Shown: piece after piece, positions 46,103-53,011 of the stretch
Layout of the letters: every line of letters starts with the position of its first letter
Position numbering within the stretch: position 1 is the stretch's first letter
From: Candidatus Enterenecus merdae
GTDB lineage: Bacteria > Bacillota > Clostridia > Oscillospirales > Oscillospiraceae
Direction of reading: 5' to 3'
Assembly (NCBI GenBank): GCA_018716385.1
Contig: DVJZ01000005.1
Coordinates: forward strand, 1-59,775
DNA length: 59,775 bases
Program-made: the position numbers and the translations under genes
The notes under the pieces: generated by a model
Database searches by the model: none
Told to the model about the DNA's origin: nothing
The model's input: the letters and a program-made list of their open reading frames with translations, nothing else

Positions 46103-46230
46103 TCCAGCGCCCATCATGGATGGGGGCCCCGCAAAGTCTCCCCTCGACTTTGCGGGGAGAGGAGCTGCAGCGGACGCTGCGAGCTTTCGCCAAACGGCGG
46201 AAGCGAGGGCGCGGCAGCTTGCGGCGACGA
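46103..46230 (+). mobile_element. Hairpin-rich insert between two copies of the aspS 3' end
   Basis: 128 bp placed exactly between the aspS stop codon and a second copy of the aspS tail. It begins TCCAGCGCCCATCATG, of which GCGCCCATCATG is an inverted copy of aspS sequence at 46021-46032, just before the duplicated tail. The remainder folds into hairpins: a 12-bp stem CCCCGCAAAGTC/GACTTTGCGGGG (46127-46138, 46146-46157), AGCTGCAGCG/CGCTGC-G-AGCT, and CTTTCGCC/GGCGGAAG. No coding capacity. The same design is seen after recF. Called a mobile element by inference only. Confidence 0.5.
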
Positions 46231-46305
46231 GGGCACGCCCAGCACCATCGATCCAAATAACTGGAGGAACTGAACCTCTCCTACACCGCCCTCAAAGGCA
46301 CCTGA
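46231..46305 (+). pseudogene. Degenerate second copy of aspS 3' end
   Basis: 75 bp that align with the last 76 bp of aspS (46027-46102) at about three quarters identity, with one deleted base and CAA changed to TAA. The decayed reading still reads D-P-K-stop-L-E-E-L-N-L-S-Y-T, then a final TGA at the same place as aspS. Many differences are conservative at protein level, which suggests that it evolved as a working aspS tail before decaying. It is not attached to any gene. Confidence 0.8.
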
Positions 46306-46321
46306 AAAAAGATGCTTCCTC

Positions 46322-46364
46322 AAACAAAAACAGCGGTGGCCCAGCCTATGCTGGGCCACCGCTG
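46322..46364 (-). terminator. rnhA terminator containing the stop codon
   Basis: Perfect 15-bp stem CAGCGGTGGCCCAGC / GCTGGGCCACCGCTG (46331-46345, 46350-46364) with a 4-nt loop. On the minus strand it is followed by TTTTTGTTTG. The rnhA stop codon TAG (46346-46348) lies in the loop and the last five codons form one arm. Confidence 0.93.
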
Positions 46365-46804
46365 TCCTCTTTCAGTTTCTGCCACTGTGCAACCGCCAGC
46401 TCGTCGCAGCGGTTGTTGTATGGGTTGTCTGCATGGCCCTTGACCCAGTGAAGGTTGACCTGGTGACGCTCACACAGCTCCAACAGCCGCGCCCACAAGT
46501 CTGGGTTCAGGGCGGGCTTTTTGTCCCCCTTCACCCAGCCCCGGGCCTTCCAGCTTTTGGCCCAGCCTTTTTCCAGTGCGTCAATGACATACTTGGAGTC
46601 GGAGTACAGCTCCACCGTACAGGGTTCCTTCAGCGCCTCCAGCCCCCGGATTACCCCGGTGAGCTCCATACGGTTGTTGGTGGTGGACGCCTCTCCCCCG
46701 CTCATCTCCCTCCTATGCGCTCCGTATAGCAGGATGGCCCCCCATCCACCGGGTCCGGGGTTGCCGGAACAGGCTCCATCGGTATACAGGGTCACCTTTT
46801 TCAT
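46346..46804 (-). CDS. rnhA: Ribonuclease HI
   Basis: Degrades RNA in RNA-DNA hybrids. 152 residues with the four catalytic acidic residues: Asp in '[16 protein letters not shown]', Glu in '[10 protein letters not shown]', Asp in '[12 protein letters not shown]' and Asp in 'NRCDELA', plus the basic handle '[15 protein letters not shown]' for substrate binding. The ATG at 46804 follows AAAGGAGAGG. The stop codon sits inside its own terminator loop. Confidence 0.95.
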
Positions 46805-46845
46805 GCAACCTCTCCTTTATCACAGGGCTGGTGGGAAGAGCGGGT

Positions 46846-47238
46846 TCACTCCTCCCGGTCAAACTGGGTGATAGCCAGGCAGGCCAGGCCAATCCCCAGC
46901 AGGAGCAGGGCAGAGCTAACCGCGATCCGATCCAGGGCAGACAGCACCGCCACGGCGATCCCCATGGCCATCGCCACCCCCCGCAGAATCAGGACAACCA
47001 GCTCCCTCGTTCCACCCTTGCCGCAGGCGGCGGCCCGGCCCTGCATCAGCTCGTCCACCGAGATCCCCAGAACCTCCGCCAGGCGGGGCAGAGAGGCCGC
47101 GTCTGGCAAGGACAGGTCCCGTTCCCACTTGGACACCGCCTTGTCCGTCACCCCCATCTGTTCGGCCAGCTCCAGCTGGGTCATCCCCTTCTCCTTGCGC
47201 AGGTCAGCCACCGTGGCTCCCAACGACTGCTTCTTCAT
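46846..47238 (-). CDS. XRE-family regulator with membrane tail
   Basis: 130 residues: an N-terminal helix-turn-helix ('LRKEKGMTQLELAEQMGVTDKAVSKWERDLSLPD'-type, residues 10-45) followed by a linker and two hydrophobic helices ('ELVVLILRGVAMAMGIAVAV' and 'VSSALLLLGIGLACLAI'). It is a membrane-tethered HTH regulator of the kind common in Firmicutes. Target and signal unknown. I choose ATG 47238, with AGGTG eight bases upstream; ATG 47243 is too near that site. It lies between gyrA and rnhA on the same strand. Confidence 0.8.
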   Translation of the reverse strand: MKKQSLGATVADLRKEKGMTQLELAEQMGVTDKAVSKWERDLSLPDAASLPRLAEVLGISVDELMQGRAAACGKGGTRELVVLILRGVAMAMGIAVAVLSALDRIAVSSALLLLGIGLACLAITQFDREE

Positions 47239-47303
47239 CCCATCCACACCTACTTTCCTCGGATGGCTGAATCCTATCACACCCGCCAACACCGGCGCAA
47301 CCC

Positions 47304-52042: not shown

Positions 52043-52090
52043 ACTGTGTCCCTCCGCTCACTGTTCTTTCCAAAGGCCAACGCCCCAAGC

Positions 52091-52498
52091 TCACTCCATG
52101 GGGCAGAAATCCGGATCGCTCTCCAGATCCTGTTCCGGTTCAAACCCGTCGTCCACCAGCTCTGTGGCCCGCATCCGCCGCGCGTTCTTGGCCTGCTCCA
52201 CCTGCTGGTAAATCAGTTCCTTGACCGCCTTGGCGTCCCGCACGCTCACCAGATCCAGATGGGGGGAGGTCTTGTCCGACGAGTGTATGCAGATCGTACC
52301 CACCCGGAAAATGCGCTGCCACAGGGATCGTGTTACTTCCAGGTCCCGCACCCGGTAGAGCAGTACCTCCTCCTCCCTCAGGTTGAGCAGCCCCGTCTCA
52401 CGAAAGATACGGCTGCCGCTCAGCCGATAACGGGTAAAGCTGATGGGCAGACCAAAGTAGCGCTTACGATCTTTCCAAAGATACTGGATGGATTCCAT
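52091..52498 (-). CDS. PH-domain-like protein (bPH_2/YdbS-like)
   Basis: 135 residues resembling a bacterial pleckstrin-homology-like domain: 'RKRYFGLPISFTRYRLSGSRIFRETGLLNLREEEVLLYRVRDLEVTRS' pattern, where a strand-turn-strand core ends 'VGTICIHSSDKTSPHLDLVSVRDA', then a C-terminal helix and acidic tail. There is no membrane helix, so it is probably cytosolic. Assignment rests on the 'YRLSGSRI...LREEEVLLYRVRDL' pattern typical of these domains. Function unknown. The ATG at 52498 follows GGGAGG with seven-base spacing. Confidence 0.65.
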   Translation of the reverse strand: MESIQYLWKDRKRYFGLPISFTRYRLSGSRIFRETGLLNLREEEVLLYRVRDLEVTRSLWQRIFRVGTICIHSSDKTSPHLDLVSVRDAKAVKELIYQQVEQAKNARRMRATELVDDGFEPEQDLESDPDFCPME

Positions 52499-52513
52499 AC
52501 TCATTCCTCCCAT

Positions 52514-52777
52514 TCACTCGAATCCAGCCTGCTCCGCTCTGCGAATCAGGGTTGCGGTGTTGACCGGGGAAAGATAGACTTCCGCCTCCTGTTCCCCCTG
52601 CTGGCACAGAAGGAAGGACCTGGGCAGATCGCCCCCCACGTTGCGCACCTGTCCCGCCTGCTCCGCCTGATGCAAGAAGCGGCGGGTACGAAAAGACCAG
52701 GTGGCGTTGTCCAGGTCAAACAGTCCCAGAATTGAGGATTCCGGAATGATCACCGATTGTCCCAGGTTCAGATACAT
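52514..52777 (-). CDS. remB: RemB/YaaB-like regulator (RemA family)
   Basis: 87 residues similar in length, order and sequence pattern to B. subtilis YaaB/RemB: 'MYLNLGQSVIIPESSILGLFDLDNA' at the start and 'VYLSPVNTATLIRRAEQAG' at the end. It is encoded between recF and gyrB, where yaaB lies in Bacillus. RemB supports extracellular-matrix gene activation there. The ATG at 52777 follows GGAGGAGGC. It lies 20 bp beyond the duplicated recF tail. Confidence 0.82.
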   Translation of the reverse strand: MYLNLGQSVIIPESSILGLFDLDNATWSFRTRRFLHQAEQAGQVRNVGGDLPRSFLLCQQGEQEAEVYLSPVNTATLIRRAEQAGFE

Positions 52778-52796
52778 GAAAGCCTCCTCCGGAATG

Positions 52797-52884
52797 TCAC
52801 ACCAGCTTGCCGGCGTGAATGTGAAAAGCGCGCCCTGTCTTTAGCTGGGCCAGTTTCTCATCCTCACAACAGGTGATCAAGACC
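52797..52884 (-). pseudogene. Second copy of recF 3' end
   Basis: 88 bp repeat the recF tail at 53012-53099 with three differences, ACT/ACC, GCC/GCT and AAA/AAG in the recF frame, all synonymous. It includes the stop codon. The copy is continuous with an open frame through the insert upstream, but that 72-codon frame (52797-53015) has no ribosome site. Silent-only change suggests that this copy evolved as a working recF end, perhaps the original one. Confidence 0.88.
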
Positions 52885-53011
52885 CCCACGGGGTAGGCCC
52901 CGTGGGGACCCCCTTTGATTTCAATGCTCGACCGAACTGAATTCGGTCTGCGCCAAGCTGGTTGCCAAGCAACCAGCTTGTACGGCGCACCCGCACCGGG
53001 CCAGGTCTTGA
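52885..53011 (-). mobile_element. Hairpin-rich insert between two copies of the recF 3' end
   Basis: 127 bp directly after the recF stop codon. In the gene's direction it opens TCAAGACCTGGCC, making TGATCAAGACCTGGCC an inverted copy of recF sequence at the upstream edge of the duplicated tail. Three perfect or near-perfect hairpins follow: AAGCTGGTTGC/GCAACCAGCTT, GACCGAA/TTCGGTC and CCCCACGGGG/CCCCGTGGGG, plus an outer TGCGCC/GGCGCA. It matches the aspS insert in size and plan but not obviously in sequence. Mobility is inferred. Confidence 0.5.

Follow-up and report, generated by a model that had tools for sequence, protein, structure and literature searches.

Two families of small structured repeats beside duplicated gene ends at recF, aspS and other conserved genes of Candidatus Enterenecus merdae and its relatives

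Gene-end duplications at recF and aspS

What kind of event leaves a gene intact and places a second copy of its end downstream? The question is raised by recF and aspS in a 59,775-nucleotide (nt) stretch of Candidatus Enterenecus merdae (contig DVJZ01000005.1, positions 1 to 59,775; hereafter the window), where each gene is followed by a short spacer and then by a duplicate of its own 3′ end. A preliminary description of the two loci had proposed a recurrent, mobile, gene-end-preserving element, and this is supported by covarying structure, by further cases in the same genome and in relatives, and by sites in the relative G003 that lack the element. The outcome named there as a refutation, a lack of further cases, did not occur. 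The recF spacer belongs to one family of dispersed structured repeats (family A) and the aspS spacer to another (family B). Together they are a real, widespread element whose insertion signature we found for no described element in the full-text literature searched, a scope that left out most subscription journals and bioRxiv.

The recF stop codon ends at 53012 on the minus strand, and a 127 nt spacer separates the gene from a second tail copy that is 88 nt long and 97% identical. An inverted piece of the host gene, 17 nt and perfect, lies at the near edge of the spacer. At aspS, whose stop codon ends at 46102 on the plus strand, the inverted piece is 12 nt and perfect, and the tail copies are 89% alike over an ungapped stretch of 27 nt and 79% alike over the full 75/76 nt in a gapped alignment; the second copy carries a frameshift and an in-frame stop. 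The inverted pieces and distal tail duplications first described at both loci were thus confirmed, and across the families they exceed a null of mismatched pairs. In G003, the relative with the best recF match, the recF and aspS sites are both empty of the element, and the second recF tail runs straight into sequence that likewise follows recF in G003.

The layout can be written as body–I | T1–I′–core–T2, where T1 and T2 are the two copies of the gene end and I′ repeats, in inverted orientation and over 10–21 nt, the host sequence I found at the junction. T1 begins at the insertion point S, and the core is about 110–160 nt long.

Members and structure of families A and B

Covariance models were built from 7 copies of A (model R2) and 16 copies of B (model R1). 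The two loci are not isolated cases, as among 31 genomes sampled from the genus these models found family A in 27 and family B in 28. G012 and G013 matched neither model, whereas the genome of the window itself has 28 A matches and 8 B matches. Order-wide, family A was found in 10/59 genomes. Three genomes of another family (G042, G069 and G086) have at least 65 A matches each, and most G069 copies examined had no clear I′ or T2 when read by eye. A pattern search for B gave 55 stretches in named genomes (20 Oscillospiraceae/Oscillibacter, 20 "Clostridiales bacterium" and 15 others). Copies lie on many contigs of many genomes, so that the special role of oriC suggested in the preliminary description is not borne out. 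As a separate observation, the B context is near-identical in Merdibacter, Anaerotignum, Massiliimalia, Anaeromassilibacillus, Roseburia and others (L247, L258, L282, L295, L250, L291, L287), probably reflecting a shared, broad-range mobile element or region that carries B.

The core helices of B contain 16 covarying pairs with changes on both sides (0/500 shuffles scored as high), and those of A contain 8 (1/500). G-T pairs are more frequent than A-C pairs in these helices (B, 49 and 10; A, 16 and 1), which indicates that one strand is the working strand. No Rfam family matched the cores: the window at the gathering threshold gave a thiamine pyrophosphate (TPP) riboswitch only (14972–15088, above the gathering score), and in 18 loci at E ≤ 5 no match overlapped a core. 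The fetched loci also hold a ZTP riboswitch (L226, 2273–2360) and an S10-Clostridia leader (L034, 2556–2629).

The two cores had been described as not obviously alike. They belong to two families, and the 3′ end of A carries a type of hairpin (GGGGCCCC...GYGGGG) found at the 5′ end of B. Two loci at the 5′ end of lepA (L245 and L288) look like composites in which A-like 5′ hairpins, the start of A, are joined to a B core, which suggests that A and B are modular pieces of one layout. In L050, L265 and L292 a B copy lies within an open reading frame (ORF) that reads as a low-molecular-weight tyrosine phosphatase, apparently in frame, like the Rickettsia palindromic elements.

Insertion architecture

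A first set of 168 distinct copies (72 A and 96 B) was taken from targeted stretches and scored against a null of mismatched upstream/downstream pairs, in which the 99% point of the repeat score was 32; two mismatched pairs stood out with scores of 156 and 166, presumably because each set one gene against its counterpart in another species. A direct repeat scoring at least 45 and beginning near the 3′ end of the core was found in 52/72 A and 13/96 B copies, and in the genome of the window a direct repeat spanned the element in 12/14 A and 3/3 B copies examined. These flanking repeats are about 30–158 nt long. An I′ scoring at least 22 was present in 45/69 A copies (null 2.7%) and 8/96 B copies (null 0.2%), with a search confined to the segment just before the core that misses other layouts.

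Host genes include recF, aspS, uvrA, uvrB, eno, glmS, tsaD, lepA, infB, ileS, asnS, smc, tuf and groEL. Several of these are targets in two or more species, and in typA and lepA there are antisense insertions at the 5′ end as well. Gene names are our reading of the translated tails, and some rows classed as sense are antisense (e.g., L126). The placement directly after the stop codon noted for recF and aspS does not generalize, as the gap from stop to I′ runs from an overlap of a few nt up to 54 nt (one antisense case, −27, and one array, 205, left out). I starts 2–7 nt to the left of S in 30/37 copies. We looked for a motif at S like a protospacer-adjacent or target-adjacent motif (PAM/TAM) in 51 aligned sites and found none; the sites are G-rich at S, an effect that the GGGG end of the element itself may have produced in the alignment. 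That the units recombine is shown by tandem arrays and by leftovers of a further I′ behind T2 (L133, L153, L049, L036).

In some copies, from few independent genes, I′ comes directly after or close to the U-tract of a terminator-like hairpin within T1 (L036, L048, L424 in eno, L373 in rplL). Chance may account for this, or it may point to the involvement of a transcript 3′ end.

A fixed single-strand distance between I and I′

The distance from S to the stop codon spreads over 31–111 nt, while S to I′ measures 63–93 nt in 26/33 copies (hand sums), the remaining seven being 35, 39, 107, 113, 114 and 114 nt and one array. The median outer distance from I to I′ is 97 nt both in A (43 copies; a single value of 375 nt was excluded from the median) and in B (7 copies). 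The antisense 5′-end insertions in typA and lepA (L207, L203, L126) give a similar 93–99 nt. We considered that the end of T1 might be set by the stop codon or the ribosome and rejected this, since S to stop is variable, S to I′ is narrow, and the antisense cases follow the same ruler.

Pooling 185 A and 139 B copies gave 98 with an I′ score of at least 22, of which 62 have an I–I′ loop of 64–79 nt, peaking at 71–72 nt, and 84 fall within 20–140 nt. A held-out set of 60 further A loci (61 copies) shares several genes with the first set and is therefore partly independent; L354 and L359 overlap earlier tsaD loci and neither yielded I′. Here I′ reached 22 in 31/61 copies (null 3.5%), 23 of these 31 loops were 64–79 nt long, and a direct repeat scored at least 43 in 42/61.

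Hairpins within T1 are skipped by this measure. Copies with no strong T1 hairpin (n = 76) have a median loop of 71 nt, 61 of them at 65–79 nt, whereas the eight copies with a strong hairpin all have loops of 96–109 nt, which become 62–84 nt once the hairpin is subtracted. Loops of at least 90 nt thus occur in 8/8 copies with a strong hairpin and 3/76 without (Fisher p = 4e-9). A loop length that ignores hairpins means that the distance was set on a single strand. Minor clusters of loops at 32–39 nt (6 copies) and 55–58 nt (4 copies) lie near two of the stable wrapping modes described for E. coli single-stranded DNA-binding protein (SSB), which are 65, 56 or 35 nt (PMC9917605). The loop peak is an inexact match to the longest mode, and the likeness is suggestive.

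Table 1. Positions of the element parts beside recF and aspS in the window
Feature	Position	Strand	Basis
I of recF (target copied by the inverted piece; spans S, T1 start 53099)	53088..53104	-	perfect inverted match over 17 nt
T1 of recF (functional 3′ end of the gene, 88 nt, stop codon included)	53012..53099	-	repeat comparison and ORF
I′ of recF (repeats I in inverted orientation; overlaps the T1 end by its first 4 nt, GTGA)	52999..53015	-	inverted match
Family A core at recF (hairpins, strand-specific structure)	52884..52994	-	covariance model R2 match; covariation
T2 of recF (second tail copy, outside the recF reading frame)	52797..52884	-	repeat comparison, ORFs, G003 comparison
I of aspS (target spanning S, T1 start 46027)	46021..46032	+	perfect inverted match over 12 nt
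T1 of aspS (functional 3′ end of the gene, stop codon included)	46027..46102	+	ORF, tail alignment
I′ of aspS (inverted copy of I)	46107..46118	+	inverted match
Family B core at aspS, 3′ end ...GCGGCGACGA	46122..46230	+	covariance model R1 match; covariation
T2 of aspS (decayed second tail: frameshift, in-frame stop)	46231..46305	+	tail alignment

Proposed mode of insertion

The reading we favour, at a probability of roughly 0.45, is that A and B are small mobile elements acting as single strands and inserting by single-strand fold-back with a putative enzyme. The target would be opened at S, which lies within a gene and close to its 5′ or 3′ end, exposing a 3′ single-stranded tail of about 80–95 nt that runs outward from S beyond the gene end and becomes T1. 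The end of this tail would fold back across a loop of about 71 unstructured nt, anneal through a few nt beside S, and prime synthesis on its own strand as far as about 4 nt beyond S, thereby writing I′. The element, as RNA or single-stranded DNA, would then be joined at its fixed 5′ end, and synthesis restarting at S would yield T2. One SSB tetramer, in its 65, 56 or 35 nt modes, could serve as the ruler. A gene would survive only if the outward tail T1 covers its stop or start signals, and surviving genic copies would look gene-end-preserving for this reason. The template switching at palindromes raised in the preliminary description comes close to this fold-back, but the fixed single-strand distance and the conserved cores argue for a dedicated element rather than random palindrome slippage.

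The match of I′ to its host is mostly local. Among 76 ordered pairs from 17 groups of corresponding sites, I′ fits the I of its own host better than that of the ortholog in 36 and equally well in 30. The clearest case is glmS, where I and I′ both change between G000 (the genome of the window)/G003 and G010/G021 and complementarity stays perfect. Fold-back priming predicts T1/T2 homology that overlaps I′ by at least 2 nt, and this is seen in 13 copies; homology reaches I′ in 18/71 copies with a native T2. Overlaps of 9–12 nt in four of these copies may be array remnants. In eno (L424) the duplication spans the 3′ untranslated region (UTR) and terminator up to I′ at 97%.

Several observations weigh against fold-back insertion. 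I′ was seen in only 8–10/96 B copies, and in 62 copies mostly of two other genera it reached 22 in 16 (null 6.7%), with repeats in 19. Where one gene carries copies in several species, these do not count as independent cases. I′ fits the ortholog's host better in 10/76 pairs (malic enzyme, hypX, typA, ileS and aspS groups), 14/98 loops fall outside 20–140 nt, and the loop peak is 6–7 nt longer than the 65-nt SSB mode. T1/T2 homology ends before I′ in 53/71 native-T2 copies, with unrelated non-coding DNA beyond; by our reading it often ends exactly at the stop or start codon, and this early end is also seen in 27/37 such copies with at least 95% tail identity. At tsaD, T2 differs between species synonymously only (17:0, 10:0 and 17:0). 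Finally, no mobilising enzyme was found in the genome of the window among the three families sought, which are taken up below.

A homology that ends before I′ is not predicted by pure local duplication, and the model needs a further process such as gene conversion, UTR turnover or recombination between lineages. We read the pattern as local duplication at the birth of a copy with recombination between lineages afterwards; the recombination half is an inference and the main weakness of the model. At tsaD the A element is present in G001, G006, G021 and G025 and absent in G010 and G011, and in G019 the tail resembles a T1 leftover joined to native downstream sequence. T1 here differs between species nearly always synonymously, and T2 is either a recently displaced native tail or one kept coding by conversion or translation. 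Translation of T2 in every case was rejected, given the decayed T2 of aspS.

The strongest rival makes recombination between lineages the whole explanation. An element would already sit just downstream of a gene, and gene end plus element would move into another strain or species whose allele lacks the element. One junction would form by homology within the gene body and the other at S, with T1 as donor tail and T2 as recipient tail. The early end of T1/T2 homology fits this, as do the tail differences in 50 copies classed as sense, of which 113 are synonymous, 57 are not and 2 exchange one stop codon for another. In G006 the tsaD T2 and downstream sequence resemble the empty G011 while the T1 end differs, and between G006 and G021 T1 differs at 7 codons and T2 at 17. 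Such homing alone leaves the fixed loop, the hairpin skipping and the mostly local I′ unexplained, and at recF T1 and T2 differ at 3/88 positions while T1 and the G003 tail differ at 9 (counted by hand). We regard it as unlikely as the sole process, though it is the best placed of the rivals.

RNA-guided homing is less likely still. A structured RNA would begin with I′ as its guide, cleavage of the target would fall at S, close to the scaffold side by a few nt, and T1 would serve as a rescue tail, making a natural home-and-rescue element. The position of I′ directly 5′ of a covarying scaffold, the closeness of S to the scaffold-proximal end of the match (the 2–7 nt given above) and the repeated hits in conserved housekeeping genes all fit. 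The aligned sites lack a PAM/TAM-like motif, however, a filled site keeps its full target, a pre-existing guide would fail to match many different new genes, and TnpB has no match in the genome (IscB and Cas9 were not sought).

It is very improbable that the element is intron-like, with I′ aligning body and T2 for RNA splicing, T1 acting as a fail-safe tail and T2 still translated. Synonymous evolution of the tsaD T2 between species would suit it, but the aspS T2 carries a frameshift and stop, T2 in L144 and L074 has lost its stop codon, antisense insertions at gene 5′ ends cannot splice the gene's mRNA, and the cores have neither an Rfam match nor a known ribozyme core. An ordinary insertion of a repetitive extragenic palindromic (REP) sequence or miniature inverted-repeat transposable element (MITE) with an ordinary target duplication has an equally slim chance, since small hairpin elements in many copies near gene ends, and a B end that read backwards starts TCGTCG and recalls CGTC-tagged REPs, are set against roughly 30–158 nt repeats, I′ and a ruler that are all out of the ordinary and a B structure at odds with the CGTC REP stem and loop as described (PMC3733652).

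Search for a mobilising enzyme

The preliminary description had suggested that an associated transposase or reverse transcriptase would support mobility. Profiles of RVT_1, Y1_Tnp and TnpB gave no match in the genome of the window. Matches at E ≤ 0.001 among the 31 genomes numbered 12 for Y1_Tnp, 20 for RVT_1 and 14 for TnpB. All three are missing from G006 (26 A plus B matches) and G018 (35), and RVT_1 is without a match in G000, G004, G006, G018, G020, G035 and G036, each with 23–72 A plus B matches. A reverse transcriptase could nevertheless have acted transiently.

Significance

Taken further, the fold-back reading would make A and B a new class of mobile element. Single-stranded DNA would be the substrate on which insertion is measured, with one SSB tetramer as a plausible gauge, and the exposed strand, folding back across the protein, would write an inverted copy of whatever sequence it meets and duplicate the adjoining gene end. 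Such an element would adapt to any target and spare essential genes without a fixed guide, and the A and B cores would share machinery. We offer this broader proposal tentatively and consider it doubtful as a whole.

The insertions point to an undescribed way for mobile DNA to insert without breaking a gene. Small mobile repeats are usually thought harmless only between genes, whereas A and B land inside conserved housekeeping genes without damage to the protein. The loop, constant at 71 nt when hairpins are skipped, resembles the footprint of a single-stranded intermediate that can be read from genome sequence alone, and with this ruler many natural insertions could serve to test how SSB, or a transposition complex, is arranged in vivo. 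The layout also accounts for odd tail duplications in genome annotation and supplies markers for recombination between gut species.

Comparison with known systems

REPs of the GTAG and CGTC superfamilies are 20–40 bp long and of high copy number, often near gene 3′ ends and in some cases inside repair or replication genes, and the CGTC type has no dedicated transposase (PMC3733652). A and B have in common with them that they are small palindromic repeats of high copy number close to gene 3′ ends; the long gene-end duplication, inverted target copy and fixed loop are not part of the REP description in the sections of the source cited here (PMC3733652). A CGTC REP is described there as an 8–9 bp stem starting with complementary A/T pairs, a 4–5 nt loop, CGTC at one end and a CCA-like tail (PMC3733652). 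We compared B with this definition and rejected the assignment, because B helix 2 has G-C and C-G base pairs at its base and encloses further helices. The preliminary description had named known REP and MITE families with ordinary duplications as an explanation that would refute its proposal; B is not a CGTC REP, but both families are short, dispersed and present in many copies, as MITEs are. The duplications of A and B are far longer than the usual target-site duplications of MITEs. The ends of A and B carry hairpins, with no single terminal inverted pair seen in alignments read by eye only.

Target-primed reverse transcription of the L1 retrotransposon, with twin priming, produces long target-site duplications, microhomology and inverted pieces at one edge. 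All three are shared with A and B, although the inverted piece in A and B comes from the host target, not the element, and RVT_1 is among the families without a match in this genome. IS200/IS605 insertion sequences share hairpins acting on one strand; we know of no long duplications made by them, and Y1_Tnp is likewise without a match here. Some prophages and islands integrate at gene 3′ ends, where a carried tail restores the gene and the native tail is displaced. Restoration by a carried tail is common to these and to A and B, which differ in their far smaller cores, many different target genes, and possession of I′ and a ruler.

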